A stretch of DNA of 64,000 nt from Roseiflexus sp. RS-1 (GTDB lineage: Bacteria; Chloroflexota; Chloroflexia; Chloroflexales; Roseiflexaceae): positions 2,666,001 to 2,730,000 of the forward strand of contig NC_009523.1 in the NCBI RefSeq assembly GCF_000016665.1, given 5' to 3'. This document shows, piece by piece, positions 1 to 59,890 of this stretch. Below the pieces are notes generated by a model, which ran no database searches, was not told the origin of the DNA, and saw nothing but the letters and a program-made list of their open reading frames with translations. Within the stretch, counting starts at the first letter, position 1. Each line of letters opens with the position of its first letter. A program made the position numbers and the translations under genes.

Positions 1-699
1 GATACGACTGTAGCGATCCATCGAACCGCTGATGTCGCACAGCACGACGAGCGGACGCTGCCGATAGCGCGGCTCGCGGAAGGTCAACTCAATCGGGTCG
101 CCGCCGTGGCGCAGGTTGCGGCGCAGGATGCGGCGCATATCGATCTCGCCGGCGCGCACTGCCGGGCGACGACGACGGGTGCGACGCGGCTCGATGCGCC
201 ACTCGAGTGTGCGTAGCAACTCCTTGCACGCCTGCACCTCTTCGTAACTGAAGTTGCCGAAGTCTTTGGTGCGCAACGTCTCAGCAGCCGTAAAGGTGAG
301 CGTAAAGCCAACCTTCTCTTCCTGCTGTTCTTCATGACGATCCGGCTCATTGTGTCCATCGCCCTGGCTGCGCGGTCGGCGCGGCAGACGCAGCGGTTTC
401 GGCGGCATCTTGACCACCGGGATCGCCAGCATCAACGGATCAAACCCTGACTGCGTGCGCCAGTAGAAATCGAACGCAGCATCGAACATCGGCAGATCTT
501 CGCGTCGGCAGATCAGGGTACAGCGCGCAGCTGCGCGAAAATCCCCACGCGCCACAATCGGCACATGCTCCAGCGCCCGCGCCAGATCGATGGTCTGTTC
601 GCTGCTGACTTTGATGCCGGTGCTGCGCAGCAGGTGCACGAACGCAACCACATGCGTCATCAGGTTCCCGTGGGGAATCAGTGGTTCTAACTCGTCCAT
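1..699 (-). CDS. vWA domain (CoxE-like) protein, C-terminus beyond window
   Basis: Read on the minus strand from ATG at 699; an in-frame TAG just upstream (the stop of the MoxR gene) bounds the start. About 233 residues are visible. The N-terminal part has the helical, basic and charged character of CoxE/DUF58-type vWA partners, with a Glu/His-rich linker near residues 115-130. Near the window edge the MIDAS-type signature DISGSM appears, which in vWA domains binds a divalent metal. It lies 24 bp downstream of the MoxR ATPase, so the two form the common MoxR-vWA pair thought to act as a chaperone or metal-insertion module. The substrate is unknown. The rest of the vWA domain is outside the window. 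Confidence 0.85.
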   Translation of the reverse strand, partial: MDELEPLIPHGNLMTHVVAFVHLLRSTGIKVSSEQTIDLARALEHVPIVARGDFRAAARCTLICRREDLPMFDAAFDFYWRTQSGFDPLMLAIPVVKMPPKPLRLPRRPRSQGDGHNEPDRHEEQQEEKVGFTLTFTAAETLRTKDFGNFSYEEVQACKELLRTLEWRIEPRRTRRRRPAVRAGEIDMRRILRRNLRHGGDPIELTFREPRYRQRPLVVLCDISGSMDRYSRI

Positions 700-723
700 A
701 ACAGCAACGCGAATCCCTGTCGT

Positions 724-1614
724 CTACACGCCCACTTTCTCCAGCAACGAACGCACCCCCTGTCCACGCACCTGCGCAATATCGTCCTGATACTTCAGAA
801 TGGCGCCCAGCGTATCCTCCACCATTTCAGGGGTGAGTTCGCGCGCATCGAGCGCCGTGAGCGCCGTTGTCCAGTCGAGAGTCTCCGCAACGCCGGGGAG
901 TTTGAAGAGATCGAGTTTGCGCAATTCGTGAACGAATGCCACGACCTGGCGCGACAGACGGTCAGACGCGCCGGGAACTCTGGCATTCACGATTCGCAGT
1001 TCTTTGTCGAGCGACGGATAATCGATCCAGTAAAACAGGCAACGTCGCTTCAGCGCATCATGGATTTCGCGCGTGCGGTTGCTGGTGATAATGACTGTCG
1101 GCGGCTGGCTGGCGCGGATGGTTCCGATTTCAGGAATGCTGATCTGCCAGTCGGAGAGCAGTTCGAGCAGGAATGCCTCAAACTCCTCATCGGCGCGGTC
1201 GATCTCGTCGATCAACAGCACCGGCGGGCGTTCCCAACTCTCCTCGATGGCTTGCAACAGCGGACGCTTGATCAGAAACTCCGGGCTGAAGATTTCATTC
1301 AGCGCCGCGTGCGCATCGCTGCCGCCGAGCGCCTCGATCAGGCGGATCTGCAACATCTGCCGGGTGTAGTTCCACTCGTATATGGTGGTGTTGACGTCGA
1401 GACCTTCGTAGCATTGCAGGCGGATCAGGTGACGATCCTGCATACGCGCCAGTGTTTTGGCAATTTCGGTCTTCCCAACCCCTGCCTCGCCTTCGAGCAG
1501 CAACGGTTTCTGCAACTTGAGCGCCAGAAAGATCGCCGTTGCCAGCGGGCGGTCTGCAATGTAGTTGTGCGCGGCAAGCGCCTGCTGTAAATCGTCAATG
1601 GTTGCAAACTGCAT
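724..1614 (-). CDS. MoxR-family AAA+ ATPase
   Basis: A 296-residue AAA+ ATPase. Walker A is GEAGVGKTE at about residues 37-45, Walker B is LLIDEIDRA, and a sensor-1 segment (TVIITSNRT) is followed by the RRCLFYWIDYP element typical of MoxR proteins. I chose ATG 1614 because the protein then begins directly with the conserved N-terminal helix; the longer upstream reading crosses the promoter region. It is followed at 24 bp by a vWA protein. MoxR ATPases usually remodel or load cofactors into a partner enzyme through the vWA protein, but no client gene is visible here. Confidence 0.93.
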   Translation of the reverse strand: MQFATIDDLQQALAAHNYIADRPLATAIFLALKLQKPLLLEGEAGVGKTEIAKTLARMQDRHLIRLQCYEGLDVNTTIYEWNYTRQMLQIRLIEALGGSDAHAALNEIFSPEFLIKRPLLQAIEESWERPPVLLIDEIDRADEEFEAFLLELLSDWQISIPEIGTIRASQPPTVIITSNRTREIHDALKRRCLFYWIDYPSLDKELRIVNARVPGASDRLSRQVVAFVHELRKLDLFKLPGVAETLDWTTALTALDARELTPEMVEDTLGAILKYQDDIAQVRGQGVRSLLEKVGV

Positions 1615-34491: not shown

Positions 34492-34663
34492 ATCATCATC
34501 TCTCCTTGCGTCACAGAGCATCTGTACTCTCAAGACGCCGACAGGATAGCAGGAGTTCCGCATCGCCGCCTGCGACAGCGGTGCGTCCTTCCAGTGTGTT
34601 ATCATACCCTTCAGCACGAGAGCAGGTTCCGGTTGTCAGTGTTCAGTTCTGGTGCGTACTCTT

Positions 34664-38010: not shown

Positions 38011-38049
38011 GCGCTGCTATCAATGAACCAACGCAAAGGACAACGAACC

Positions 38050-38721: not shown

Positions 38722-38773
38722 CGCGCACGCGGCGGCGCGGCGCATCGTTGTTGAACCATACGGAGGAATCATC

Positions 38774-43288: not shown

Positions 43289-44203
43289 ATGTCCTCAAGC
43301 CTCTCCGCACCGCTGAGCAGCGCCCTCACACCAAAGAAATCGCAGGTGGCGCCAATGCTGTTGCTCATCGTCGGGATTATGACATCACTCGCCGCTGCGG
43401 CATATGGCTACATCGAGAGTCGTCGCACCGAGCGCGTAGTCATCGCAGCGCGCGACATTCCATATGCGGCGCAGATCACGGTCGACGATCTCGCGGTCAT
43501 CGAATTGCCACTGCACCGTCCGGTGCAGGTTGCTGGCATCACCGATCCGCAGGCAGTCATCGGGCAGTATGCAACACGGCAGATCGGCATGAACGATCTC
43601 CTCAACCCCGGCATGCTGGCAGCCAGCCCGCCTGATGAGCCGGTCTATCCAAACGGACGCAAACTGGAGCGCAATATGGTTCCTGCACCGTTTGCGCTGA
43701 CCGGCGTCGGTCCGGTGACCGACCGCGACCGGTTGAATATCGGGTTTATCGCCAGTGATCCGTCGTTGTGCGACCGGGAGCGCGCGGATGTGCCTTTGGG
43801 GACGATCCTGGATGCACCGGCAACGCTTCTGGTGATGTCGGAAGGATCGCGGTCGTATGCCTGCCGCTGGATGTCGGGGATTCCGATCCTGTACATCGAA
43901 GGCGAAATCGCCTATCTGGAGATGACCCCCGCGCAGGCGCATGCGTTACGGGCGTTACAGGCGGCAAATGTGGCGCTGTGGGCGGAACGCTACGGCGCCG
44001 CCAGCGATCCGTTGCAGTACATGGATCGCCTCGATGCGGCGCAGGTGATACTGCCCGATCTGACGCGCCCGATGACCGAGACGCTGCGTATCGAGCCACA
44101 GGTCATACCTGGAGCGACTCTTCCGGTTCCCGGTGCACATGCGCCAATCCCCGGCGCACCGGCACAACCTTCCTCCGACGCTGCACCCGATCCATTGCCC
44201 TGA
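43289..44203 (+). CDS. CpaB/RcpC-like SAF-domain protein
   Basis: 304 residues. One transmembrane segment at about 22-45, then the SAF domain with VVIAARDIPYAAQITVDDLAVIELP and the later QYATRQIGMNDLL. The Pro-rich C-terminal tail is likely disordered. CpaB/RcpC proteins sit in the inner-membrane periplasmic part of Tad machines. It is 48 bp after the TadE/G gene and 36 bp before a CpaF-type ATPase. Confidence 0.87.
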   Translation: MSSSLSAPLSSALTPKKSQVAPMLLLIVGIMTSLAAAAYGYIESRRTERVVIAARDIPYAAQITVDDLAVIELPLHRPVQVAGITDPQAVIGQYATRQIGMNDLLNPGMLAASPPDEPVYPNGRKLERNMVPAPFALTGVGPVTDRDRLNIGFIASDPSLCDRERADVPLGTILDAPATLLVMSEGSRSYACRWMSGIPILYIEGEIAYLEMTPAQAHALRALQAANVALWAERYGAASDPLQYMDRLDAAQVILPDLTRPMTETLRIEPQVIPGATLPVPGAHAPIPGAPAQPSSDAAPDPLP

Positions 44204-44239
44204 TCGCTGACTGTCCGTTGTCAAGAGGAGACCCGTTCA

Positions 44240-45481
44240 ATGTCAGAGTTTTTTATGAACGGTCATACAGAAAAACCGGAAATGTGCGTGCACGACCCTC
44301 CCGATGTCGCGCCCACTCCAGCCGAGCGCCTGGCAGAGTTGCGGTTTTGTCAGGACACCGGACGGTTGAGCAACTGGCAGCGTCCGGTGGCGGAGACATT
44401 GCTGCGCGCCGGTCTTGGCGAGGGATACACCGCTGCGGAATGGGCGGAAGTTGCCTGGTACGGTCCGCTCGACGCATGGGTTCGCGCTGGCTCGCGCGTC
44501 TCGGACATGTTCATCGACGGACCTGATCGAACGATTGTGGTCGTCGAAGAGGGCAATCGAAGCGATACCGGGATTCGCGTCTGCAATGAATGGCTGCGCT
44601 GGACGCAGCGCCAGTTGCTGCTGCGGGCCGGATTCGTCACTCCTGATGACCCGGACGACTGGCGCAACGCCGATGGGCAGATCGTCCACGCGCTCTACGG
44701 CACCGCCGACCGGCGATTGCGTTTTGCCGTCACCCGTCCGCCGTACACCCCGGACGGCGCGACGATTGCGGTACGCGTGCTTCCTGCTCGCTGGAAAACG
44801 ATCGATGATCTGGTTCAGCACGAAGGAGGCGTGCTTTCACGTGAAGCCGCCGACCTGTTGATTGAAGCCATCCGGCGCGGCGTCACCCTTCTGATTGCCG
44901 GAAGCGCAGGCAGCGGCAAGACGACCCTTACTGCCGCCTTGCTCCAGGCAATCGCTGCTGAGAAGCGCGTCATCATCATCGAAGACGCGCGCGAACTGCC
45001 GCTGCCGCCGGACGGGATGGCGGTAGAAGTGCTGCGCAGTCGCAGCAGTTTTGCACACTGCGTCCGGCTAACGCTCCGGCAGCGTCCCGACCTGATTGTT
45101 CTCGGAGAAGTGCGCGGACCGGAAGCGCTGGCGATGCTCGAAGCCGCTGCCACCGGGCATCCCGGCATCTGCACGATCCACGCCCCCGATACGCTGACCG
45201 CGCTGCGCAACCTGGAGCGATTCGCCACGCTCGATGGGCTGGCGTCACCGGGCGTGGTGCGCGGCATGATGACAAGCGGCGCTGTACCCCTGATCGCGGT
45301 GCATATTGGCATCTATGGCGGGCGTCGTCGTGTCGGGCAGATCGTCGAGGTCATTGTTACGAGCGGCAGTCAGGCAGGTGATTCGCTGCCACACAACCCA
45401 TTGTTCGCATTCAATCACGCCACGAACCGCCTCGAACGGAAATATCCCGTTCAGGGCGCATGGGGCAAAGGTCGGCTGTAA
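44240..45481 (+). CDS. CpaF/TadA-type secretion ATPase (first copy)
   Basis: 413 residues. Walker A is AGSAGSGKTTL (K227), the Asp box region IIIEDARELPL, Walker B-like DLIVLGEVRG (E290), and the His box TGHPGICTIHA are all intact. The family forms hexamers that power Tad pilus assembly or other type II/IV secretion. N-terminal ~200 residues carry the usual CpaF N-domain. A second, longer CpaF-like ATPase is encoded at 46912. Confidence 0.93.
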   Translation: MSEFFMNGHTEKPEMCVHDPPDVAPTPAERLAELRFCQDTGRLSNWQRPVAETLLRAGLGEGYTAAEWAEVAWYGPLDAWVRAGSRVSDMFIDGPDRTIVVVEEGNRSDTGIRVCNEWLRWTQRQLLLRAGFVTPDDPDDWRNADGQIVHALYGTADRRLRFAVTRPPYTPDGATIAVRVLPARWKTIDDLVQHEGGVLSREAADLLIEAIRRGVTLLIAGSAGSGKTTLTAALLQAIAAEKRVIIIEDARELPLPPDGMAVEVLRSRSSFAHCVRLTLRQRPDLIVLGEVRGPEALAMLEAAATGHPGICTIHAPDTLTALRNLERFATLDGLASPGVVRGMMTSGAVPLIAVHIGIYGGRRRVGQIVEVIVTSGSQAGDSLPHNPLFAFNHATNRLERKYPVQGAWGKGRL

Positions 45482-45514
45482 TGAGGATAGAGAACATAAA
45501 CGGGTATTCGTGCT

Positions 45515-45570
45515 TGCCGTGGGACTAAAGTCCTCGGCTAGACGGGACAAAGCCCGCCTGCGCGGGCTAT
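45515..45570. repeat. Short intergenic element with two hairpins
   Basis: Two inverted repeats: GGACT-AA-AGTCC (45522-45533) and AGCCCGC-CTGC-GCGGGCT (45551-45568). The pattern of an ACTAAAGTCC box followed by a GCCCGCCTGCGCGGGC box matches a dispersed intergenic element I associate with Chloroflexota and cyanobacteria (recollection, not checked). It lies in the only long gap (152 bp) inside the Tad-like block and may affect transcription through it. Confidence 0.6.
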
Positions 45571-45633
45571 AGTGGAATAAATGTTCAATAACCATGTAAA
45601 CAACCGGTTCCCCCGGATGATAAGGAGGCGTCC

Positions 45634-46884
45634 ATGGCAATCGAACTCTTACTGGTCACCAACACAACAGGTCTGGTCGAAGCGCTTGGGTGCTACAACG
45701 GCATTCTTCCTTTCCCGGCGCCGAACCTGGCGCGCGTGCGCAGCCTGGTCGCAGGCGATCAACCGCCGCCGGTGGTGTATCTGGAGGATACACGCGGTAC
45801 CATCGCCGACCTGTGGGAAACCATTCACGTGGCGCAGGCGCATGGCGTGCGGGTGCTGGTCGGTCTCCAGAGCATTGGGATGGTTCACGCCAGCGACTTC
45901 ACCGACGCCGGGCTGTCGGTCACAACCATACGCGAGCCTGAAGCGCTGGCGGGCTGGATCGCGCAGCAACTCGGCGTTGGCAGGCGTCTTGCCGCTCGCC
46001 AGGTGACGATTGCCGTCGCCGGGGCGAAGGGCGGCATCGGGAAAAGCCTGGTGGTCGCGTCACTCGCTGAGGGAATGCGCCGACGCGGGTTACGAGTGCT
46101 GGTGGTTGATGGCGATCTCTCGAATTCGGGGCTGGTGCCGGAGTTTCGCATCCCGGCAGGTTTTGGCTCATTTCTGACCCTGCGCCAGGAAGGGCGCGGG
46201 CATACTCAGTTTACGCCGTCCAACGTCGCGCGCCTGATCTGGCGACACGCTCCCAGCGGCATCGATTTCCTGCTTGGCGCCGATGAAGCGGCGCTTGCTG
46301 CCGACTTCACCCTGCCCGACTGGCGCGCGCTGATGCAGGCAGTTGGCAGTCTGGGCGAGGTGCTCGAACAGGATTACGATGTTGTTCTGATCGACACCGG
46401 TCCTGATATGAAAAAGCGCCCCTACGCGCTCGAAGCGGCGCGCAACGGCGGATGGGTCGTGTTGCCGGCGCCGCCGGGACGCAAGGAACGCGCGGGGGTC
46501 GGCATTGCGCTGCAACAGTTCGCTGCCCATCAACCCGATCTGACCGACCGCTGCATGCTGATACTGATGGAACCTGAGCGCGGCGTAACGGTTGGATTGC
46601 GTCAGGTTGCGCCGCTGTTCGCCCGCCACTGGCCCCGGGCGCGCGTCATTGGCACGCTCCCGCGCGATCCGTACCTGGTCAGCCTGGCAAACGAAGAGTC
46701 GGATCGCTACGTTTCGCCACTGGATGTCGGGCGATTTCGCCCCTTCTCGCTCGCAGTCCACAACATTGTCGAAGAGATGTGTCGCATCATCGGGCTGTCA
46801 CTTCCACAACCAAAGCCGTCTGTGAGCCTGTTCCGGCGCTGGTTTCCCGGCAGGCCCGCGCTGGTCGTGAACGGCGCGCGGTGA
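45634..46884 (+). CDS. CpaE/TadZ-like MinD-type ATPase
   Basis: 416 residues, ATG preceded by AAGGAGG. The N-terminal ~120 residues resemble a receiver-like domain as in CpaE; the MinD-type ATPase follows with deviant Walker A AGAKGGIGKS (K137) and switch segments VVDGDLSNSG and VLIDTGPD. CpaE/TadZ localises the Tad pilus at the pole or assembly site. Position between two CpaF-like ATPases supports this role. Confidence 0.87.
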   Translation: MAIELLLVTNTTGLVEALGCYNGILPFPAPNLARVRSLVAGDQPPPVVYLEDTRGTIADLWETIHVAQAHGVRVLVGLQSIGMVHASDFTDAGLSVTTIREPEALAGWIAQQLGVGRRLAARQVTIAVAGAKGGIGKSLVVASLAEGMRRRGLRVLVVDGDLSNSGLVPEFRIPAGFGSFLTLRQEGRGHTQFTPSNVARLIWRHAPSGIDFLLGADEAALAADFTLPDWRALMQAVGSLGEVLEQDYDVVLIDTGPDMKKRPYALEAARNGGWVVLPAPPGRKERAGVGIALQQFAAHQPDLTDRCMLILMEPERGVTVGLRQVAPLFARHWPRARVIGTLPRDPYLVSLANEESDRYVSPLDVGRFRPFSLAVHNIVEEMCRIIGLSLPQPKPSVSLFRRWFPGRPALVVNGAR

Positions 46885-46911
46885 AGGTGCATTATGAAAG
46901 GTGGAAACGCC

Positions 46912-48981
46912 ATGAATCATCCAGGTCCATCCAATTCGGGAGGTCCGCCGCCACTTTCTATTGAAGAAGACGGCGGTCTGGCAACCCTGCTCGGCGGGCC
47001 AACCGATACGCTGGGGCGCGAAGCAGTGTTGCGCGAGGCGGCGATCCTTCAGGCAGCCCGCGACGAACTGCAACACGCATTCAGCACCGACGAACGACGG
47101 CGCCTGCTGAACCCCTTCGCGCCAGCTGGCGAGCGGAATACTGAAGTCATCACTGTGTTGCGCCGGGCAATCGGGCAGCACCGGACGCGCGGCGGTCCGC
47201 TGGCGCGCGTCCCGACCGATGATGAAACATTGCTGGCGATCTTTGCTGCGACCATTGGATGGGGACCGGCGCAACGCTATCTCGACGATCCGCGCGTCAA
47301 CGAAGTCAAGATTATTGGGCGTCGCATTCGCGTGCAGGAGAGCGGCAAACCGTTCCTCACCGTCGCAGAACAGTTTGCCAGCGCCGCCGAAGTGCGGGAT
47401 CGCGCAATGCTCCTTGCATCGCTCATGGGTGTTCACCTCGATGCCCAAAATCCGCAGGAGACATTGCCTGCCGATCATGGAACACGCATTCACGCGACCA
47501 TTCCGCCACGCATCCCCACCGATGACGGCGCACTGATCTGCATCCGTCGCGGGCGGCGCGTCGCCTGGGACGTGCACGACCTGATGCAGCGCGGCGCGTT
47601 CAACCAGCAGATCGCAGATCTGCTCCTGCTGCTGGCGCGGGCGCGCTGCTCCTTCTTGATCGCCGGACGCACCGGCAGCGGCAAGACGGCGCTGCTCGAA
47701 GCGCTCGCCAACTCCTGGCCCGGCGACCCGCACATCCTTACCATCGAAGACCACATGCAGGAGATCCATATCCGCCGCGCCGATCTCTGGACGCGCGAAC
47801 AGGTGAACACGCAGCGCGATCCCGACGCCTTTGGTCGTGTCGCCAGGGAAGCGCTGCGCCAGACGCCCGATCTTCTCTGTCCGGGCGAAATCCGGGGCAA
47901 TGAGGCTGGCGCCGTTCTGGCACTGGTTCTCTCCGACCATCCGGTGATCACCACACTGCACGCGCGGTCGTGCAGTGAAGCAATCGAGCGCTTTGCCAGT
48001 TTTGCCGCCATGCCAGGAGCGTATATGTATGAAGGTCGGCGTGGTGATGCGCTCCGTGATGCCGCCAGTGGTTTCGATGTGGTGATTAAACTCGATAACT
48101 GGGAAGAACTTGGTCTGCGCCTGATCACCGATATTGCGCTCCTCGACGGCGCTGTCGTGGATCAGGGCGTGCTCCGCCCGGCGCTGGTACCGCTGGCGAG
48201 GGTCGATGTGCTGCCCGACGGGAGGATTGACTGGCGCTGCCGGGCGACTGTGAGTGCTGGCGGGTTGCTGGAATGGGACGAAGGCGACCCGACGCCTGAG
48301 TCGCTGCGTGAGAAACTGGTGCGGGCGCGCGCGCTGGCGCAGGTGCGCCAGACCGCCACATCCCTCGATGCGGTTGCCGATGCGATTTCTCGCGCTCAAA
48401 CCCACACACTGGCGGGTGAACCGGAACGCGCGCTCGCCACATTGCGCACTGCCTGGTTGCAACGCCGCGATCCGCGCCTGATCGGCGCAGCGCAGGATGC
48501 GCTGAATCAGGCGCCGGGCATGTTTGCCAGTCTGATCCAACAGGCAGATACGGAAAGCGCCGCCCTGCAACGCCTCATGGCGTCGAACCGCTGGCGCGAT
48601 GCGCGCCTGGCGTTCGATGCGATCATGACCGATCTGGCGCTTGCCGCGCACGCTGCCCCTCCCGGTGGCTGGGAAGCGGTTGAAGCGCTGATCCGCCAGG
48701 GAATTGCAGCGGAACTTGCCGCAGAAGAAGCGCGGATCGAGGCGGAACGCGCCCTCAATCAGGGGCAGGCGCGTCTTGCGGTAGATATGCTCGCCCGATT
48801 CACCCCTTCGGATCTGCCGCTCTCCATTGCGTTACCGCTGATCCGTGTGCGCGAACAGGCAATGGAACAGTTGGTGAAGGCGGGTCAAGGTTCGGCAGCG
48901 GCGCTGGCCACCGTGCGCGCGCAACGGGGTGCGCTCGAGGCTTCCGGTGAGCATCACGTCTCAGCCACCACCTCTGCATGA
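46912..48981 (+). CDS. CpaF/TadA-type secretion ATPase with long C-terminal extension (second copy)
   Basis: 689 residues from ATG 46912 (AAAGGTGG upstream); ATG 46894 is also possible. Walker A AGRTGSGKTAL (K258), ILTIEDHMQEI, DLLCPGEIRGNEA and a His box VITTLHARS are intact. Residues ~430-690 form a helical, Ala/Arg-rich extension absent from usual CpaF (about 450-500 residues). It is followed at 15 bp by TadB-like gene, so it is probably the ATPase that drives the TadB/TadC platform, while the first copy may have a separate job. Confidence 0.88.
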   Translation: MNHPGPSNSGGPPPLSIEEDGGLATLLGGPTDTLGREAVLREAAILQAARDELQHAFSTDERRRLLNPFAPAGERNTEVITVLRRAIGQHRTRGGPLARVPTDDETLLAIFAATIGWGPAQRYLDDPRVNEVKIIGRRIRVQESGKPFLTVAEQFASAAEVRDRAMLLASLMGVHLDAQNPQETLPADHGTRIHATIPPRIPTDDGALICIRRGRRVAWDVHDLMQRGAFNQQIADLLLLLARARCSFLIAGRTGSGKTALLEALANSWPGDPHILTIEDHMQEIHIRRADLWTREQVNTQRDPDAFGRVAREALRQTPDLLCPGEIRGNEAGAVLALVLSDHPVITTLHARSCSEAIERFASFAAMPGAYMYEGRRGDALRDAASGFDVVIKLDNWEELGLRLITDIALLDGAVVDQGVLRPALVPLARVDVLPDGRIDWRCRATVSAGGLLEWDEGDPTPESLREKLVRARALAQVRQTATSLDAVADAISRAQTHTLAGEPERALATLRTAWLQRRDPRLIGAAQDALNQAPGMFASLIQQADTESAALQRLMASNRWRDARLAFDAIMTDLALAAHAAPPGGWEAVEALIRQGIAAELAAEEARIEAERALNQGQARLAVDMLARFTPSDLPLSIALPLIRVREQAMEQLVKAGQGSAAALATVRAQRGALEASGEHHVSATTSA

Positions 48982-48996
48982 AAGGAACGTTATCCT

Positions 48997-49947
48997 ATGG
49001 ATCCGACGTCGATCATCACGCCGCACACGACCCATCCCGAAACTGCATGGCTGGCGGACCTGACGCCGCTGGCAGCGACGATCGCCGCAATCCTGATCGT
49101 GACATTCCTGATGCAGAGCCGCCTGGGATCGGCGCTCGATGCCTGGCTTGCGCGACGATTCGCTCCTTCCGGCGCAGATATTGTCGATCCGGCGCTGCGC
49201 TGGCGCCCGCCGGTTATTGCCGCGTCGCGTCTGCTTGCCGTTTGTGTGATTGCAGCACTGGTCATCCTGGTGATCCTGAGCCGGGTGGGACCGTTGCTCG
49301 TCGCCGTTGTGCTGGCAGGACCGGCGACTGCACTGCTCGTCTGGGCATTGCTCTGGTTTGAAGAACAACGCTATATCGCCCGGATCGATGCGGCGCTGCC
49401 AGCATTCGTCGGACGGCTGGAAGCGCAGGTGCGCGCCGGTAGCGGTCTGCAACCTGCGATCGAAAAAGTCATTGCCGACATGCCCGCGTCGCCGCTCAAA
49501 GCCGAGTGGTCATGGTTTCTGGAGCGATTGGGGCAACCGATCGCCAACGGATTCCTCGCCACAGCAGCGACCGTGTGCGCTGCGTTGCGCGCTCAGACGC
49601 CATCGCGTCGCCATGCCACGTTTCTCAGCCATCTGGAAATTGCCATTGAGCAACCGCATGCCGCGCTGGTGCAGCGGATTCGCGCTGCATACGAAGCGAT
49701 GCAGGCGTCTGACCGCCGCGCCAGTATGCTGGCGACGGAACTCTCCCAAATGCGTAACACCGGCATCGCCCTGTTCCTGATCAATGTCGGCATCACCCTC
49801 TACCTGTTCGTCGTCCAGAACGAACGGTTTCTGACAGCATACCGCAGCGAACCGGGCTTGATCGTGGGCGCAGTGCTGGCGCTGGTCGTCAGTCTGCCGC
49901 TGGTCGGCGGTTATCTGCTCGGACGCGCCGAAGACGTGACGTACTGA
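48997..49947 (+). CDS. TadB-like inner-membrane platform protein
   Basis: 316 residues. Transmembrane segments at about 24-40, 70-110 and two at the C-terminus (ALFLINVGITLYLFVV and GAVLALVVSLPLVGGYLL). The cytoplasmic middle has the T2SF pattern: LEAQVRAGSGLQPAIEKVI. TadB and TadC form the platform turned by CpaF. The next gene is a TadC-like protein, which supports the assignment. Confidence 0.8.
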   Translation: MDPTSIITPHTTHPETAWLADLTPLAATIAAILIVTFLMQSRLGSALDAWLARRFAPSGADIVDPALRWRPPVIAASRLLAVCVIAALVILVILSRVGPLLVAVVLAGPATALLVWALLWFEEQRYIARIDAALPAFVGRLEAQVRAGSGLQPAIEKVIADMPASPLKAEWSWFLERLGQPIANGFLATAATVCAALRAQTPSRRHATFLSHLEIAIEQPHAALVQRIRAAYEAMQASDRRASMLATELSQMRNTGIALFLINVGITLYLFVVQNERFLTAYRSEPGLIVGAVLALVVSLPLVGGYLLGRAEDVTY

Positions 49948-49969
49948 AGCAAACAGAACGAGGTAACCA

Positions 49970-50761
49970 ATGAGCGACATCTTCGTCCTACCGGGGGTCT
50001 GGACAGCGTTTATCGGCATTGCGGGGGTTCTGATCGCTGCTATCGGGATGATGCAGATCGATCATGCCCGTGCACTGGCGAGTGGATTGCGCGCCCTTCC
50101 GTCGCGCTGGGGAATGACCGGTCGGTTCGTGCTGGGGCACCTTGCGGCGCTGCCGCTGGCGGCGGTTCCTGTGCTTCTCATCGCTTCTGCTGGAGTTGAT
50201 GGCATGCCGCGTTTGCTGCTCGCAACCACTGCGCTCGGCATCTACCTCTATGTCGGGATCGTCATTCCGCGCAAGCCGGTGACGAATAGACAACGGGAGC
50301 AGAAACGATTGCGACAGTTGACCCCTTCCTTTGTTGCATATGTGCGTGTGGCGCTTGCCGGGTACGACGCGCCGCCGGTTCTGCTCGAACGCTACCTGAT
50401 GCGACCGGATGACCGTTATGCCCCGATGCAGCGTGTGGTTGCCGATGCCCTGCATCTGGTGCACGATCGTGGCATCTTGCCGTTCGATGCGTTGCGACGC
50501 ATTGCGCGCGACCGTGGGTGCCAGGAGTTGATCGATGTCACCGAGGCGCTGGCGCAGGCTGAAGCGGAGGGGTCCGATCCGCAGGCGGCATTGCTGGCGC
50601 AGGAGACGACGCTCAATCAGGTGCTCCACGATGAGTTTCGCCGCATGATCGAGCGACGCAAACTGTACCTGCTCGCGCTCGCAGCGCTCGCGGTCGTCAG
50701 TGTGCTGGTGCAGATCATTTTTGTGATTGTGATGGGCAGCGGTGTTATGGAACGTTTCTGA
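49970..50761 (+). CDS. TadC-like inner-membrane platform protein
   Basis: 263 residues. Hydrophobic segments at about 8-26, 48-66, 72-88 and a strong C-terminal one (YLLALAALAVVSVLVQIIFVIV). Cytoplasmic helical region between resembles T2SF proteins (FVAYVRVALAGYDAPPVLLE). Shorter than typical TadC, but the position right after TadB supports the call. Confidence 0.75.
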   Translation: MSDIFVLPGVWTAFIGIAGVLIAAIGMMQIDHARALASGLRALPSRWGMTGRFVLGHLAALPLAAVPVLLIASAGVDGMPRLLLATTALGIYLYVGIVIPRKPVTNRQREQKRLRQLTPSFVAYVRVALAGYDAPPVLLERYLMRPDDRYAPMQRVVADALHLVHDRGILPFDALRRIARDRGCQELIDVTEALAQAEAEGSDPQAALLAQETTLNQVLHDEFRRMIERRKLYLLALAALAVVSVLVQIIFVIVMGSGVMERF

Positions 50762-50774
50762 AAAGAGACCAGCA

Positions 50775-51485
50775 ATGAAACCCTTTCGCCGTCCCCGTTT
50801 GCGACATCGTTATGCACCGCCGCAGCGCGCCGCTCGACGCCGGAACGATACCGTCAGTCCGCCGCTGAGTGACCGCCTGGCATCCATCATCCTCGCCTGG
50901 CAACCGCTCGACCGGTTGCTGACAGGAGCGATGCGCTACCCTCGCGCGCTTATGGGTGTTGCCGGTGTGTGTGGCATTGTGATCGCCATCTGGTCTCTCA
51001 CCCGCTTCGGGAATGCGATCCAGGATGCGGAATATCGAGACTCATCATCCGCGACTCAGAGCGCTTATACGCACTTATCTCCAATACACCCGCTCTCGCC
51101 TGTGCCAGATGATATGGTTCGCTTGCTGACGGCGTACAACCAGGCGAGTGCGCTGGCAGCGATGCAGGGCAGGGCGGACGTGCTCAGTCCCTACCTGACG
51201 CCCGACGGACCTGCGTGGCAGGCGGTGATTCGGGAGTATGCACGGCGCGCGGAGACCGGCGAACGCCACCAGGCGACGCTGGTGCGTTGGGGGGTTCTGG
51301 CGAGCGACACCACACCTGAAGGCGCGTGGGTCGATACCCAGGAGCAGTGGGACGTGATCATCACCATCGGCGAACGTATCGTCAGCAGCAGACGCGGCAT
51401 TCTGACGCGCAACCGGTATGTGCTGCGTCGGGACGACGATGGGTGGCGGATTGTTGATATAGCAACAACAATGCTTATCCGGTAA
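50775..51485 (+). CDS. Membrane protein with NTF2-like/IMS-like C-terminal domain
   Basis: 236 residues. Basic N-terminus with PPQRAARRR, one transmembrane segment at about 60-82, then a ~150-residue domain containing YNQASALAAMQGRADVLSP, WQAVIREYARR, a beta region, and RYVLRRDDDGWRIVDI. This resembles ARC6-type IMS or NTF2-like domains. In T4SS, VirB8 has the same plan (one TM and an NTF2-like domain), so a VirB8-like role is possible. It stands just between the Tad-like and the VirB-like genes. Confidence 0.6.
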   Translation: MKPFRRPRLRHRYAPPQRAARRRNDTVSPPLSDRLASIILAWQPLDRLLTGAMRYPRALMGVAGVCGIVIAIWSLTRFGNAIQDAEYRDSSSATQSAYTHLSPIHPLSPVPDDMVRLLTAYNQASALAAMQGRADVLSPYLTPDGPAWQAVIREYARRAETGERHQATLVRWGVLASDTTPEGAWVDTQEQWDVIITIGERIVSSRRGILTRNRYVLRRDDDGWRIVDIATTMLIR

Positions 51486-51584: not shown

Positions 51585-53774
51585 ATGACATCGCAGAACA
51601 ATAGTGCAGATACCACGGCGCAATCTGTTCCTCATAGCCCGACAGCAGGCACACTCCACGCTCAGACGCGCCTTCTTTCCGCCTGTGCATATCCGGCTCC
51701 CTGGCAGGTTGGGCGATACGTCCTGCGCGTGTGGATGGTGCTTCTGGCGCTCGCGCTGTGTCTCCCTCTCCCGGCTTATGCCGATGCCCCCGGTACCCGC
51801 GGCGATCCACCGCTGCCGGAAGGATCGACCACCCAGAGCAGCACCGACGCATCGTTCTGGCAGGGTGTGCATCCGCTGGCGCCGCCAACCGCAGTGCAGC
51901 CACGGAACCGGCACGACATGGTTCCTTCGTCCGAACCTTCGTCCTGGTTTTCACGCTCACTCAATCCGGGCATGTGGGTGCTCGACGCCGGCATGGGCGT
52001 CTTTGCCGGGGTGATTCTCACCTTTGGCGAGACGATCCAGCGTGTGGCAGCCGCTCTGATCAAGGCGGGTGAGAATGTTCAATCGTGGACGATCATTCCA
52101 TCGAGTTGTCGCGACAACGCTGCAACCAACTTCGTCTTCTGCACGCCTTCCTCGCTCACCTACGATCATCCGGGCATGCAGGCGATCTGGAGCGTGATGC
52201 GCGCCGTTGCACAGTTGCTGGTCACGCTCCTTTTTGTGGTGCGGATGAGCCGGTTGCTGGCAGAAGGACAGCCAGGCTTCGTCACCGAAGGGAAGGGGTT
52301 GGTGCTGACGTTCCTGGGTGTTTCACTGTTCGTCAACTCGACCCAGGCGACGCTTCAATTGGTGATCGATCTCTTCAATGCCATCAGCGATGAGTTGCTG
52401 ACCAGAGCCTCCTTCGAAATGCCGACGCCGATCGGGCATGAGTTGAACGCAGGTGCGGCGCTGATCTATGCCCTCTTCTGGGTGGCGATGGCTTGGTTGA
52501 TTATCAAAAACGCCTTTCGGGTTGTTCACATCATGGTGCTGGTCGGACTCGCGCCGCTGGCAGGCGCATTGCTGATGGACCGCTCGACGGCGCCACGGTT
52601 CTATGGGTGGCTTGGTCGTCTCTTCGATCTGCTGATCGAGCAGGTCGCGCTGGCAGCGACGATGATCGTCGCCGTGGGAATGATGACGCCGCTGCGCGGC
52701 GGAGCAGACCAGGTGTTCACCGGTTATGTGCTTGGTCTGCTGACGTTGCTGGTGACGGTGCTCGGCTCTGAACGGTTGACCGGCATGGCGCAGTCGGTCA
52801 CGCAGGGCATGCCCCTGGTGTCGCGGATTCAAGGCTTCATGTGGCGGCACGGCAAGAACGCGGTTGTCACGAGAGCAGCCGGAGCGGCAGACAGAGTTGC
52901 TTCCGCCGGCGGCAACTTCCTGGCGCGACGCGGGGTCGATGGCGGATTCAAGCGAACGGCGCGCGAAGTCTTGAAGCCTGATGGGAACGGGCGCTCAGCC
53001 GCTGCACCCCGCACGCTCGATGGTCGGGTTCCCTTCCGCATGCCCGTCGCCGACAGTCGCACCCGACGTGAGTACGACCGCCTGAGAGTCCAGGCGATTG
53101 CCGGGGATCGACCTGACGAAGCGCGGCGGAAGATGGCGACGATCCACGCGCGCGGTATGCGTGTTCAGGCTGATGAAATCCGGCGCGGCATCGGGTTCAG
53201 AACACCCGGCGATGAGCGTCTGGCGAAAACGCGGAGCGCTGCCGATCTTGAACGAAGAGCCGGGCTTCAAGAAGCATTCGCAGATGGTCACCTTCGACCG
53301 CGCCCCTCGCCGTGGAGCGCCGATCAGCAGCGTCGCCGCCGCGATATTGCTCGCGCCGCGCTGCTCGAAGCGCAGGCTGAGCACCGCATCGAGCGCGAAG
53401 AGACAATGGCGGCGCTGCAACGCGATGAGCGCGACCTCCCCGCCGCTCCGCCCGATCAGCGCGCAGTGATCATGGCGCGCATCCAGGAGCGGCAGGCGCG
53501 GGTGGCTGCGTTGACCCCCGCGAAAGGAATGACCGTCGCCGCCGCGACCCGCGCACACGCGGCCGCACTGATGCGGCAACGACTGGCAGCCGAAGGTCTT
53601 GCCACACCACCCCGCATACGCGAACCCTGGGGCATGGAAAAACTATCGTCGCCGGTGCGTCGTCCCGTCGTCGTGGTAGAACGTCGCATTCCCGCCAGGG
53701 GTCTGCGGTCTCTGTCACGCTCCCCGGTCACACCGTCAGTGCATGCTTCGGCCGAACAGGAGCGCAACTCATGA
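51585..53774 (+). CDS. VirB6/TrbL-like polytopic membrane protein
   Basis: 729 residues. A signal peptide-like segment at about 43-66 precedes a short loop with a Cys pair (SSCRDN, FVFCTP), and about six transmembrane segments follow between 125 and 400 (including ALFWVAMAWLIIKNAF and YVLGLLTLLVTVLG). The last ~320 residues are charged and partly coiled, likely cytoplasmic. This plan fits VirB6/TrbL inner-membrane channel proteins of T4SS. Its stop overlaps the hydrolase start (ATGA), and the PrgI and VirB4 genes are downstream, which supports the call. Confidence 0.72.
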   Translation: MTSQNNSADTTAQSVPHSPTAGTLHAQTRLLSACAYPAPWQVGRYVLRVWMVLLALALCLPLPAYADAPGTRGDPPLPEGSTTQSSTDASFWQGVHPLAPPTAVQPRNRHDMVPSSEPSSWFSRSLNPGMWVLDAGMGVFAGVILTFGETIQRVAAALIKAGENVQSWTIIPSSCRDNAATNFVFCTPSSLTYDHPGMQAIWSVMRAVAQLLVTLLFVVRMSRLLAEGQPGFVTEGKGLVLTFLGVSLFVNSTQATLQLVIDLFNAISDELLTRASFEMPTPIGHELNAGAALIYALFWVAMAWLIIKNAFRVVHIMVLVGLAPLAGALLMDRSTAPRFYGWLGRLFDLLIEQVALAATMIVAVGMMTPLRGGADQVFTGYVLGLLTLLVTVLGSERLTGMAQSVTQGMPLVSRIQGFMWRHGKNAVVTRAAGAADRVASAGGNFLARRGVDGGFKRTAREVLKPDGNGRSAAAPRTLDGRVPFRMPVADSRTRREYDRLRVQAIAGDRPDEARRKMATIHARGMRVQADEIRRGIGFRTPGDERLAKTRSAADLERRAGLQEAFADGHLRPRPSPWSADQQRRRRDIARAALLEAQAEHRIEREETMAALQRDERDLPAAPPDQRAVIMARIQERQARVAALTPAKGMTVAAATRAHAAALMRQRLAAEGLATPPRIREPWGMEKLSSPVRRPVVVVERRIPARGLRSLSRSPVTPSVHASAEQERNS

Positions 53775-56587
53775 ATGACGATGCAGACAATCGCCGGTCG
53801 CCATCACCGGTGCGTGATGCAGCAATCAGCGCGAGTCGCGTTGCCGGGCAACGTGCGCTGCGGGCAGTCGGGTCGGCGCTGATGAAAACCGGCGCAGCCG
53901 CCGGTGGAAAGGTCATTGTCGTTGCGGCGCTGGTTGTGCTGACGATCATCCTGATCGGCGGACTGATCCTGATCATTGTGGGCGCGCTCGGCGCCGTCTT
54001 TCAGCACACTGCGCTGCCCTGGCCCGTGCCGCCGGACGTGCTGCCCGACGGAACCTATCGCGCAGGCGGTTGGGCCATCTCCAGTCGCTTCGGCTGGCGT
54101 CGTCATCCGATCACTGGTCAACCGGAGTTCCACGATGGCATTGACATCATCAACCCGACCGGCGCATGCCCGTTCGGATACCGCTGCCTCCTACCGGCAA
54201 TGTTCGACGGGATGGTCACCCACGTTGGGTGGGACCTGAACGCACCGCGTCGTCCGGCGCAGGAAGGCGGCGGTCAGACTGTCATTGTCGAAAGCAGTCG
54301 CGGCGCATATCAGACGATCTACGCCCATCTGGAACCATACCGCTTGTATGTGCAACTCCAGGGGCGGATCGTCGATGAGTATGGGCGCTACGACGAGTAT
54401 GCCGACTACCAGCCGATCGGCAGCGGCGAACTGGTTCCTGATGTGGACGAAGGATCGATTGCGATCTGGTGTCAGGGAGATATGCCGGTCTTTGTGCCGA
54501 CACGCGACGGCGGGACGATCACCTTTCTCTATGACCGCCCGGCATCCTGCCAGACAGGTGTGATCTGGGGGGAACGCGGCAATGGCTGGCGCGGCTGGAT
54601 TGCCGACGATCCCCCAGCGGATGCGCAGGGACGGGCCACGTTGCGCTGGCAAACGCCGCTGAGCGGTGTGCGTGGTCAACGCCGCGCCGGGGATGTCGCG
54701 CTCCGTTTCCGCGCGCATCTCGTGCCGCCGCCGCCCCCGCCGACCGCAACCCCGACGCCGGGAGCGCAAACCCCAATCGCAGGCGGACACGCGCCGGACA
54801 GGATCGATCTCGCAGCGCACCAGGGCAGCCAGCGAACCGGTGAACCCTGTCAGCCATACGGCACTGGCGTGTACTGCGTGTGGCGACTGGCGGACATTCC
54901 GGTTGCGCCGCGTCAGGATGCCCGTCGGCGAGTTATGTCCGGCGTGGGAAGCCTGGAACGTGAAGCGCAGACCGGTCTGTTCTCTCGCCCGCCTGACGCA
55001 CCATCATCTGCCGCGACACCAACCCGACAAATCTCTTCCTTTCTCACACTCAGCATGAGCACAGTCGGCGCCCCTCATCTGCCGGTGGGTGGACGTCGCC
55101 GGGTCGCCCTGTCTGCCACCAGTAGCGACTGGCCCCTGACGGTTGATGTCGATGTTGGCGCGAACCTGATGGTGTTGGACATCACCGATGTCTCCGGCGA
55201 CGTGCGATGTACCTCTACAGCGCACACCGTCCGATGCGAAGGGGGTGGTCCGTATGTTCTCTTTGCCGGGTTCGTGGTGGAAGTGTTGCCAGGTGCAGCA
55301 ATGGATAGTATTCAGACCCTTCGCAGCGTGGCTGCATCACCGGTGCAACAGCAGACAACGATGATACATCTGCTCATCGAGCCATACGCGGTCACACCTG
55401 GACCCTGGCCCCCGCCAACTCCGCTGCCGACCACCACACCGGCGCCTTACCCTGCGCCGGTGACGCCAGCAGTTCCCCCCGCGCCACCCCTGCCGGGAGT
55501 GACACCCATCGCAGGACCTTCCCCAGGACCCGGACGGGGACCGGGAGACTCGCCGCTGGTGTGTCGGGTGCAGGCGCTCGTTCCCCTGCCCGGCGTTGTG
55601 AACGCCGCTGGTACGACGACAAACATGCTGCTCGCCGAAGATGCAGCGCGCAGTTTTGCCGCAGTGCGCGCCGAGATCATCGCTGCAACCGGGCACGATC
55701 CGCTTGCACGGCTTGCCGATGCGCTGCGCCAGCCGGAGTTCCGCTCAAACAAGCCGGGGGTTGCCCTGATGTCGTGGCATATGACCGGTCGAGCCATCGA
55801 TGTGGACACCGGCTATTCCTGGCGGCGGGTGCGTGAAGGGCGTATGTGGCGGTTGTATCTCAACCTGACCGATGTGACTGCGATCTTCGAGCGCCACGGC
55901 TGGAACCGCATCCCGGATCGCGCCGATTCTCAGGAGTGGTGGCATTACGAATACCACCCGAATGGCATCAGTTGGGCAAGCGCCATGCTGGAGGTCTGGA
56001 GTATGCAGCGTCTGCAAGCCGCATTTCCGCAGATCAACTGGAGCAGTATCGGTTGCCAGGCGCCGCCGCCGGGTAGCGATACCTTCCCCGAAGGCGATAT
56101 GCACGAACGTTGCGTGGCAGGTATTCCCTCGTTTGCGCATCCCGTCGAAACACTACCGGGATGCGGACCACCAGTGCGTCCTGGCGATCGGGTGTATCAA
56201 CTGGAGTCGCCGGTGGGATTCGTCGGGCTGACGGGGCTTACCACCGGACCGCACCTGCACCTGGGGATGCGGCAGCGCGATTACACCGGCAGTTTCCCGA
56301 TGATCAACATCTGTACACCCGAATGGTTGCAGGGTCTCCAGCCGCCGCCGGAAACAAACTGCTGGACCGATATGGTCGATCCGCTGGCATTTCTGCCGCT
56401 GGCGCCACCGGACAACCCGGCAGGCTTACCCGAAGGAGCGCCCTATCAACTACCACCGCCGAACTACCCCGGTTCGCTCTATCGTGAGCCGCGTCCCGGC
56501 GAACCACCGGTCGGGCAGTACTGGTCGCCCGACGCTGACGGTGGACAGTACGGCGGCGGCAAAGCAGGCAGATCGACATCGAGGTGA
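53771..56587 (+). CDS. Membrane-anchored peptidoglycan hydrolase: M23 domain split by an M15 (VanY-like) insert
   Basis: 938 residues. Transmembrane segment at about 52-77. The M23 (LytM) zinc and catalytic residues are separated: HDGID (H121, D125) and YAHL (H186) near the N-terminus, but the HxH motif, GPHLHLG (H828, H830), only after ~640 more residues; normally they are about 30-40 apart. The insert carries Pro-rich linkers, a beta domain, and an M15 domain with SWHMTGRAIDVD (H670, D677) and EWWHYEY (H725). Both active sites look intact. Such hydrolases open the wall for T4SS (VirB1-like role). Its start overlaps the VirB6-like gene. Confidence 0.8.
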   Translation: MNDDADNRRSPSPVRDAAISASRVAGQRALRAVGSALMKTGAAAGGKVIVVAALVVLTIILIGGLILIIVGALGAVFQHTALPWPVPPDVLPDGTYRAGGWAISSRFGWRRHPITGQPEFHDGIDIINPTGACPFGYRCLLPAMFDGMVTHVGWDLNAPRRPAQEGGGQTVIVESSRGAYQTIYAHLEPYRLYVQLQGRIVDEYGRYDEYADYQPIGSGELVPDVDEGSIAIWCQGDMPVFVPTRDGGTITFLYDRPASCQTGVIWGERGNGWRGWIADDPPADAQGRATLRWQTPLSGVRGQRRAGDVALRFRAHLVPPPPPPTATPTPGAQTPIAGGHAPDRIDLAAHQGSQRTGEPCQPYGTGVYCVWRLADIPVAPRQDARRRVMSGVGSLEREAQTGLFSRPPDAPSSAATPTRQISSFLTLSMSTVGAPHLPVGGRRRVALSATSSDWPLTVDVDVGANLMVLDITDVSGDVRCTSTAHTVRCEGGGPYVLFAGFVVEVLPGAAMDSIQTLRSVAASPVQQQTTMIHLLIEPYAVTPGPWPPPTPLPTTTPAPYPAPVTPAVPPAPPLPGVTPIAGPSPGPGRGPGDSPLVCRVQALVPLPGVVNAAGTTTNMLLAEDAARSFAAVRAEIIAATGHDPLARLADALRQPEFRSNKPGVALMSWHMTGRAIDVDTGYSWRRVREGRMWRLYLNLTDVTAIFERHGWNRIPDRADSQEWWHYEYHPNGISWASAMLEVWSMQRLQAAFPQINWSSIGCQAPPPGSDTFPEGDMHERCVAGIPSFAHPVETLPGCGPPVRPGDRVYQLESPVGFVGLTGLTTGPHLHLGMRQRDYTGSFPMINICTPEWLQGLQPPPETNCWTDMVDPLAFLPLAPPDNPAGLPEGAPYQLPPPNYPGSLYREPRPGEPPVGQYWSPDADGGQYGGGKAGRSTSR

Positions 56588-56950: not shown

Positions 56951-56969
56951 ACCGGAAAGGAGCATGTGC

Positions 56970-57365
56970 ATGAGCGATTACCTGACTGTGGCGCCGCCAC
57001 GACGTTTGCGGCTGCATGCGTCGGTGCAGATTGCCGGCATGCGCCTGCCTGCCCGCGCATTTCTGATGAGCGTCGGCATACTGACGGCTGGAGGGATCGC
57101 CATAACGCTCGGCGCCGACATCGAGCGCACGATCTGGGCGAGCGGTTGCCTGATCTTCCTGGGGTTGGCGCTGCTGGAAGGGCGTGTTTGGGGACGTTCA
57201 TCGCGAGAGGCGGCTGGCATCGTGTGGCGACATCTCAAACGTCCGAAACGTCTCCGCCTGATCCAGCCGCACATGGCGCTACCGCCTGAAGAAGCATTAT
57301 CACCCGTGTTGAAGCCGCGTCGTCCGCACTGGCACTATCAGGAGACTGCTGATGAGCATGACTGA
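56970..57365 (+). CDS. PrgI/VirB3-like membrane protein
   Basis: 131 residues from ATG 56970 (AAGGAG at 7 nt; the ATG at 56964 is too close). Two transmembrane segments near 27-46 and 52-68 follow a short N-terminus, and a basic C-terminal tail contains WRHLKRPKRLRL. PrgI proteins, the monoderm counterpart of VirB3, have this plan and lie just upstream of VirB4 genes, as here. It overlaps the next gene by 14 bp. Confidence 0.65.
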   Translation: MSDYLTVAPPRRLRLHASVQIAGMRLPARAFLMSVGILTAGGIAITLGADIERTIWASGCLIFLGLALLEGRVWGRSSREAAGIVWRHLKRPKRLRLIQPHMALPPEEALSPVLKPRRPHWHYQETADEHD

Positions 57366-58033: not shown

Positions 58034-59890
58034 ATGTCTCTCCGCGAAGCGCTATCCAAACCGATCATCGAGCCGGCGCGTCATCGTCGCAGTCCACATG
58101 CGGCGCTGATCTCCGGCGCGACCACGCTCACCACGTTGCTGGCGCCAGACGGCATCGACCGGCGCTGGAGCCATATGGTGCAGATTGGCGATTCGTTTAT
58201 GACCACCCTGGAAGTGCGCGCATTCCCGCCGACACTCTCGCTGGCGTGGCTCGATGATCCGGAGTTGGGTCTCGACACCCCTGGCACGACCGTCCACCAA
58301 CGCCTGGTTCCCATTCCCGACGCACTGGCGCGTCGGGTGCTGGCGCGCAGTGAAGACGCGGCGCTGGGCACGCTGGCAGGTGATGCGCAGGCGGGTACGC
58401 ACTTCGACATGGAAGCGCAACAGGGGGTCGAAGCGACGGCGGCGCTGCGCCACGATCTGACCGCAGGAACGGATCGCCTGTTCCAGGTAGCGGTGACGAT
58501 TACACTTGCTGCCGCGACACCCGAAGAACTGGCGGCGCGCGTGGATCGCGTGCGTCTGGCTGCGGCTCAGCAGGGCATCCTGCTGGGTGTTGTGCAATTT
58601 CAACAATGGGAAGGGTATCTGGGCGCTTTGCCGCTCGGATATGATCAACCGGGACTGCTGCACGACACCAGCGGGCGCGCCGCTGCGATGGGGTTGCCAA
58701 CCGCTGCGCCAGGGTTGACACGTCGCGGCGGGCTGCCCATCGTGTGGGGAGAACATCCCCGCAGCGGCGCGCCGATCGTGTATGACCGCTGGCAGGCGAC
58801 CAATCCGCATATGCTGATAGTCGCCGAGTCGGGCAGCGGCAAAACCTACACCATGGGCGGATTGCTGGCACAGGAACTGGCGCTTGGCGAAGACGCCCTG
58901 CTCATTCTCGACCCGAAACGACAGGAATACCGCTCGCTGACGACGGCGCTCGGCGGGGCGTACATTTCGCTCTCCGGTCGCGCCGGGTACCATATCAACC
59001 CCCTGGAACTGCCGCCGCTCGCGCCGGAGCGCGCCCGCGCCGTCGCTGCGCTGGAGGAGGACCTGCTTGGACAGCGGATCAGCGTTGTCAAAGCGCTGAT
59101 AACGCGCGAACTGAAAGCGCAGGGCGCGGCGATCGACGCAGTCGGCGCAGCGGCGATCCAGGATGCCATTGCTGCCGCCTATGCAGCACGCGGGATCAGC
59201 AGCGATCCACGCACCTTTACCCAACCGATGCCCACCTTCAGCGATGTGCAGCAGTACCTGGCGGAAATTGCTCCTGAACTGGCGCGCGCATTGACGCTTT
59301 TCACGCGCGGCACGATTGGCGACCTGTTCAACCATCCGTCGAACGTGCCGACCGACAACCCGCTGCTGGCGCTCGATCTCTGGTCGTTGCTCCAGAGCAA
59401 CGACGAAACGCTTGCGCGCCTGTTGCCGGTGATTGTCATGGATTTTTTTGTAACCACCGCGATCAACCGTCCCACCGGTCGCCGCAGCCATCTGGTGCTC
59501 GACGAAGCGCACGCCCTGCTCCACTCGGAAGTCGGGGCGCGCACCCTGCAAATGATCTTTCGCATTGGGCGGAGTTTGCAGTTCAAAGCGACTGTTATCA
59601 CCCAGAGCCTCGACGATCTGGACGAAAGCGATCAAACGCGCGTGTTGCTGGAGAATGCGCGCACCAAACTCATCCTCGGATTGAACCGCGACTCGGACGC
59701 CGTCAACCGGGCAACCGCCATTCTGCGCCTGAATGAAGAGGAAGCGGCGTATCTGGCGACCTGTCGGATCGAGCGGGGAATTGGCGCAACGGCGTTGCTT
59801 CTGGCGGACGGTGAACGCACGCCGCTCTTCATTCCAAAGTGGCCCGAAACGATCCATCGCATCGTTACGGGCACAGGGGGCGACCGATGA
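58034..59890 (+). CDS. VirB4-family T4SS ATPase
   Basis: 618 residues. The N-domain carries LEVRAFPPTLSLAWL and QWEGYLGALPLGYD, typical of VirB4 in PrgI-type systems. Walker A AESGSGKTYT (K270) is followed by ALLILDPKRQEYRSL, Walker B HLVLDEAHAL (D490) and the TQSLDDLDES motif. All are intact. VirB4 powers T4SS assembly and substrate transfer at the inner membrane. Stop and next start overlap (ATGA). Confidence 0.93.
   Translation: MSLREALSKPIIEPARHRRSPHAALISGATTLTTLLAPDGIDRRWSHMVQIGDSFMTTLEVRAFPPTLSLAWLDDPELGLDTPGTTVHQRLVPIPDALARRVLARSEDAALGTLAGDAQAGTHFDMEAQQGVEATAALRHDLTAGTDRLFQVAVTITLAAATPEELAARVDRVRLAAAQQGILLGVVQFQQWEGYLGALPLGYDQPGLLHDTSGRAAAMGLPTAAPGLTRRGGLPIVWGEHPRSGAPIVYDRWQATNPHMLIVAESGSGKTYTMGGLLAQELALGEDALLILDPKRQEYRSLTTALGGAYISLSGRAGYHINPLELPPLAPERARAVAALEEDLLGQRISVVKALITRELKAQGAAIDAVGAAAIQDAIAAAYAARGISSDPRTFTQPMPTFSDVQQYLAEIAPELARALTLFTRGTIGDLFNHPSNVPTDNPLLALDLWSLLQSNDETLARLLPVIVMDFFVTTAINRPTGRRSHLVLDEAHALLHSEVGARTLQMIFRIGRSLQFKATVITQSLDDLDESDQTRVLLENARTKLILGLNRDSDAVNRATAILRLNEEEAAYLATCRIERGIGATALLLADGERTPLFIPKWPETIHRIVTGTGGDR

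Follow-up and report, generated by a model that had tools for sequence, protein, structure and literature searches.

A membrane-anchored protein of Roseiflexus with an M15 peptidase domain nested in a two-piece M23 domain, encoded beside VirB6- and VirB4-like genes

Results

We identified a gene for an unusual 938-aa protein in a 64,000-nucleotide stretch of Roseiflexus sp. RS-1 DNA (NC_009523.1, positions 2,666,001 to 2,730,000, hereafter the window). The protein is probably (we put this at about 0.78) an anchored, wall-facing hydrolase that takes the VirB1/PrgK place in a monoderm-type T4SS apparatus, and that consists of a two-piece M23 domain with an M15 domain nested inside it. Sequence, profile comparison, structure prediction and selection support the two-piece M23 domain, the M15 domain, the conserved catalytic sets and the linkage to VirB6- and VirB4-like genes. 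What is new is the architecture and, in some relatives, its division over two genes; the enzyme families themselves are known.

The ATG start of the gene overlaps the stop of the VirB6-like gene by 4 nt, and close relatives of the protein are found in Roseiflexus MAGs (91% best-segment identity). The basic N-terminus is predicted to lie on the inside, followed by a single membrane helix that the structural model places at residues 46-80 (pLDDT 92-95 at 51-70, and 73-74 after the helix). A single predicted anchor combined with wall-facing hydrolase domains is the arrangement of the VirB1/PrgK-type T4SS hydrolases. The coordinates of the gene, its domains and its neighbours are given in Table 1.

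Table 1. Coordinates of the nested hydrolase gene, its domains and neighbouring genes in the window.
Feature	Position in window	Strand	Basis
Tad/Cpa part: CpaB-like SAF protein, two T2SSE ATPases, ParA/TadZ-like, two TadB/TadC-like	43289..50761	+	
Possible VirB8-like protein, one TM	50742..51485	+	weak SnoaL/NTF2-like match, E 0.025
VirB6/TrbL-like membrane protein, adjacent	51585..53774	+	PF04610 sub-threshold, E 0.001; conserved synteny
938-aa membrane-anchored M23 protein with nested M15	53771..56587	+	whole ORF
Transmembrane helix, residues about 47-80	53909..54010	+	hydropathy and model
M23 N-terminal piece, residues 95-192, H121/D125/H186	54053..54346	+	Pfam M23 profile 2-56
Insert domain 2, beta-rich, residues 196-330	54356..54760	+	conserved; gene A end in split-gene relatives
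Ig-like/adhesin-type beta domain, residues 423-538	55037..55384	+	model pLDDT 81-97; Z 15.5 to 9ifr
Proline-rich linker, residues 541-594	55391..55552	+	sequence
M15 (VanY-like) domain, residues 596-760, H670/D677/E722/H725	55556..56050	+	motifs, profile comparison
M23 C-terminal piece, residues 797-877, H828/H830 (GPHLHLG)	56159..56401	+	Pfam M23 profile 57-90
Small membrane protein in VirB3/PrgI position	56964..57365	+	position and synteny; family matches: none
VirB4-like ATPase	58034..59890	+	NF045971, E 5.7e-57; PF19044

An M23 domain in two pieces

The Pfam M23 profile matches the whole protein with an E-value of 3e-9 (37.4 bits, cut-off 28.7). Residues 95-200 by themselves match profile positions 2-56 (E 1.4e-5), residues 785-880 by themselves match positions 57-90 (E 7.9e-4), and joining the two pieces without the insert yields a single unbroken match to positions 2-90 at 46.7 bits. 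The same two stretches match the solved M23 proteins 3slu and 6muk, in order, by phmmer. The zinc/catalytic set of the family (HxxxD, H, HxH) is complete, with H121, D125, H186 (YAH), H828 and H830 all found where a preliminary description of this DNA had placed them. That description had also stated that these motifs normally lie tens of residues apart. In 56 other M23 domains drawn from viral contigs, 29-38 residues indeed separate the YAH histidine from HxH, as compared to 642 residues in the Roseiflexus protein.

Forty-five of these 56 uninterrupted domains were aligned with five full-length proteins (MAFFT, 50 rows). The 45 domains bridge the gap, with 0 residues placed at the central 569 positions (216-784), and the columns invariant in all 50 rows include H121, D125, G147, G168, H186, G819, G822, T825, G826, H828, H830 and P871. 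Complementary profile pieces, phmmer, this alignment and the fold match given below bear out the earlier proposal of one LytM domain split around an insert, and support an M23 (LytM) domain built from two distant pieces of the sequence. The best explanation is that the loop joining the YAH strand to the GDxV hairpin has accepted about 600 residues. Judged by its residues, the domain would be a zinc-dependent peptidoglycan endopeptidase.

AlphaFold run on five Roseiflexus-type sequences only returned a pLDDT of 33.6 and no usable M23 domain. A second model, which was partly guided because its 50-row alignment included the 45 M23 domains, has a pLDDT of mostly 82-89 in ten-residue blocks of residues 101-190 (61-65 in three blocks) and of 72-76 at residues 811-840. 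VIA-align, whose ranges give the first and last aligned residue only, matched the LytM domain of DipM to model residues 80..877 (Z 15.0, 127 residues, 30% identity), lysostaphin to 79..883 (Z 14.4) and a gonococcal M23 protein to 79..877 (Z 13.8, 38% identity). The N-terminal piece is too short to supply 127 residues alone, so the DipM alignment spans both pieces. The match to DipM in this M23-guided model agrees with the prediction of the preliminary description that residues 110-190 and 800-850 fold into one LytM domain. Since M23 rows guided it, the model is supporting rather than independent evidence for the fold; the profile partition, the phmmer matches and selection are independent of it.

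A composite insert with an M15 domain

An insert of about 640 residues carrying an M15 peptidase had been described. The M15 domain is present, but the insert is not M15 alone: its other parts are a beta domain, an Ig-like domain and two proline-rich linkers. The Ig-like domain, bordered by the linkers on both sides, resembles those of adhesins and pilins, and this stretch is missing from three relatives (G058, G059 and G060).

The M15 residues listed previously (H670, D677, H725) are all in place, and the list lacked one, E722 of the ExWH motif (EWWH). In the Roseiflexus protein the two motifs read SWHMTGRAID and EWWHYE, and S668, H670, D677, E722, W724 and H725 are invariant in nine homologs (SxHxxGxAxD and ExWH). 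The PF13539 score of the domain is 21.3 bits, under the Pfam cut-off of 25, and comparison of its profile with VanY-type proteins of related genomes by hhalign gave a probability of 94.8% (E 5e-8). The M15 region of the second model is poor (block pLDDT about 25-66). A profile search of solved structures with the M15 domain returned no convincing match, and no M15 relative that could deepen the alignment was confirmed among viral contigs.

The nearest M15 relatives are Chloroflexota domains that stand alone, are SH3-linked or lie behind a TolB-type-propeller-like repeat region, and propeller-plus-M15 proteins of this type across the Chloroflexota may have been the source of the inserted domain. 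The M15 family comprises endopeptidases as well as carboxypeptidases. With both catalytic sets intact and constrained, the Roseiflexus protein may be a bifunctional endopeptidase and carboxypeptidase. Elsewhere in the same genome (L097:4343-6073, C1 about 2379342-2381072) a secreted protein carries N-terminal repeats that appear by eye to be of the TolB-propeller type, with an M15 domain of this kind behind them.

Relatives with the protein split over two genes

Two neighbouring genes, A and B, together encode the protein in G016 (L041) and on contig C702 of G060 (L039). Gene A encodes an N-terminal membrane helix, the M23 N-terminal piece with H, D and YGH, and then the beta domain; gene B encodes its own leader, the M15 domain, the M23 C-terminal piece with HLHLG and a C-terminal tail. 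The leader of gene B is a clear N-terminal hydrophobic stretch in G060, while that of G016 falls below the same hydropathy threshold, its first 40 residues looking signal-peptide-like by eye. The stop of gene A and the start of gene B are 17 bases apart and in different frames in L039; in L041 the genes are 417 bases apart with several stops between them. The catalytic residues are intact in both M23 halves of these genes. Pfam M23 recognized the split genes neither singly nor joined, and they were assigned by their conserved motifs and by their homology with the fused proteins (gene A to the window protein E 6.5e-16, gene B E 2e-60). Between the G060 and G016 split genes dN/dS is 0.074 for the M23 N-terminal piece, 0.107 for the C-terminal piece and 0.098 for M15, indicating that these are not decaying genes. 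G060 has an estimated contamination of 5%, and its two systems, one fused and one split, may stem from different organisms.

The same gene pair occurs in G003, with gene B ending after M15. Unrelated sequence follows directly after this M15 domain (L042, around 3174), a candidate truncation or misassembly. Common ancestry of a DUF11 domain in gene B of G016 with the Ig-like domain in the window protein was considered and is unsupported by hhalign.

Decayed gene B fragments are present in G033, G029, G041 and G001, and two split loci have tyrosine recombinase and primase-like genes close by (L041:16243-16728, L042:8576-11959). These observations suggest that the split-gene systems may be mobile, perhaps carried by a mobile element in the order. 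Searches of plasmid and phage collections found no homolog except one M23 match of about 100 residues.

In the M15 tree the fused and split proteins fall on opposite sides of one branch (94/98), so the tree is compatible with either state being older. We favour a nested state that came first and a later fission in the linker, because insertion into an M23 loop would give a working intermediate. A more speculative reading, which we rate as less likely than not, is assembly of the M23 site in trans: in G016 and the second G060 system, and perhaps in the original state of G003, two polypeptides, each exported and anchored on its own, would together form the site, and the nested Roseiflexus protein would be the fused form. 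Gene A would give H, D and the YGH histidine, and gene B HxH and M15. The wall-cutting site would then form only once both subunits meet at the secretion machine, making it an assembly-gated hydrolase.

Conservation and selection of the two catalytic sites

Full-length homologs were found in 6/6 Roseiflexus genomes searched and in G061, and shorter nested versions in three more genomes, G058, G059 and G060, in the last across a contig break; ten genomes have the nested architecture. Purifying selection is strong on the M15 domain and on each of the M23 halves, with dN/dS values of 0.07-0.12 (M23 N-terminal piece), 0.09-0.10 (M23 C-terminal piece) and 0.06-0.10 (M15). The value for the linker plus the Ig-like region is 0.28-0.29.

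G058 and G059, which belong to another genus, have lost M23 residues in both halves (D125 to E, H186 to G, H830 to R), and their M23 C-terminal piece has a dN/dS of 0.41 as compared to 0.078 for M15. That the two sides of the insert lost residues jointly supports a single M23 active site shared between them. It also indicates that M23 activity is not universally needed and that M15 can be retained alone. Together with the fused copy of G060, in which H828 is missing, and with PrgK of the Enterococcus plasmid pCF10, whose LytM domain is degenerate and regulatory and down-regulates its active muramidase (PMC11323569), these proteins fit a reading in which only M15 is catalytic and the split M23 domain serves as a scaffold, either structural or regulatory, for binding peptidoglycan or controlling the M15 site. 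For the Roseiflexus protein we consider this rather unlikely: Roseiflexus, G061 and the split-gene relatives keep every M23 catalytic residue, and both M23 halves are as constrained as M15.

A hybrid Tad/Cpa and VirB operon

The gene lies in a Tad/Cpa and VirB hybrid run at window positions 42554-63067 (+) that is conserved in ten genomes. The run encodes, in order, a CpaB-like protein, a T2SSE ATPase, a ParA/TadZ-like protein, a second T2SSE ATPase and two TadB/TadC-like membrane proteins, the last two assigned by position and weak matches; it continues with a possible VirB8-like protein, the VirB6/TrbL-like protein, the M23/M15 protein, two small membrane proteins and VirB4. The order VirB6, M23/M15 gene, VirB3-like, VirB4 is the same in ten genomes, in one of them across a contig break. 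A PF03432 relaxase was found in 0/12 genomes, and the genome of the window has no separate coupling-protein match (PF12696, TraG-D_C), the sole match being VirB4 itself. DNA transfer is therefore not indicated, and from its gene content the hybrid locus resembles a machine for secretion or pilus formation more than a conjugation element.

The CpaB-like, TadA-like, TadZ-like and TadB/TadC-like genes of the operon, and the lack of a PF03432 relaxase in the 12 genomes, would also suit a role of the protein in building Tad pili or in some other envelope process, the VirB-like genes being mere operon neighbours. We regard this as unlikely, as the split-gene systems of G016 and G060-C702 keep TrbL/VirB6 and VirB4 neighbours with no match to Tad-like genes, and the M23/M15 gene of the window directly overlaps the VirB6-like gene.

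Upstream of the run is a 1001-aa DUF11-repeat surface protein with a CAP-domain protein before it (window 38023-41674, +). The window also encodes an Amidase_2 protein followed by a CHAT-domain protein (9740-14234, +) and a 2044-aa bacterial alpha-2-macroglobulin with four Big_5 Ig-like matches (28483-34617, −).

Discussion

The idea of an end-to-end fusion of two hydrolases, in which the two M23 motifs would come from two domains, incomplete or unrelated, with no nesting, draws on a motif distance far beyond the usual range and on the separate genes of some relatives, and is largely refuted and highly improbable given that the M23 profile pieces are complementary without overlap, degenerate together in G058 and G059, and align as one LytM domain in the guided model.

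The nested hydrolase is like other M23 domains (LytM, lysostaphin, the LytM domain of DipM) in profile, in its HxxxD / H / HxH set and in predicted fold; it differs in the insert of about 600 residues between the YAH strand and the next hairpin and in its division over two genes in some relatives. Its M15 domain has the SxHxxGRAxD and ExWH motifs of the VanY / M15_4 type and resembles VanY-type proteins by hhalign, but it is an inserted domain from a divergent Chloroflexota branch that scores under the Pfam cut-off. A review of M23 proteins reporting over 1,000 architectures has 0 occurrences of M15 in its main text, and in open-licence papers, a weak guide to precedent, we found neither an M23 domain with an inserted enzyme nor M15 combined with M23.

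All known Gram-positive VirB1 homologs are membrane-anchored, and the described classes employ SLT, muramidase, CHAP and LytM domains (PMC12857230). In PrgK the LytM, SLT (muramidase) and CHAP domains are wall-facing and consecutive (PMC11323569), and VirB1 homologs containing M23 occur in T4SS loci of Patescibacteria (PMC12102498). The Roseiflexus protein is like PrgK in being membrane-anchored, wall-facing and multi-domain, in having a LytM/M23 domain, which is degenerate in PrgK and in some nested homologs, and in being encoded beside VirB6, VirB3 and VirB4 homologs. Unlike PrgK, it has as its second enzyme an M15 domain nested inside M23; Pfam and NCBIfam scans of the 938-aa protein found no glycosidase (SLT or muramidase) and no CHAP domain. 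It would thus be VirB1-like in working, yet, having no SLT, muramidase or CHAP domain, it is outside the described ALPHA, BETA, GAMMA and DELTA classes. The locus shares with monoderm MPF-FATA-type T4SS loci a set of the VirB1-VirB3-VirB4-VirB6 type without outer-membrane parts, but here the set is joined to Tad genes and two T2SSE ATPases.

For an anchored VirB1/PrgK-type hydrolase, we infer two activities, their order and a role in the machine as follows. The M23 site probably cleaves cross-bridge peptide bonds, and the M15 site would trim stem-peptide ends, so that both catalytic units on one anchor could open the wall locally at the machine. Division of the M23 site by a long flexible insert, or in relatives by the border between two genes, points to a possible control step in which the M23 domain is completed.

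If this is correct, an M23 domain tolerates a peptidase-bearing insert of 600 residues, and even division over two genes, which would be a simple way to hold a wall hydrolase inactive until the machine is assembled. The protein would also provide a VirB1-type enzyme open to direct tests, in a phylum whose wall enzymes and secretion systems have received little study, together with a naturally split M23 domain whose reconstitution can be assayed.
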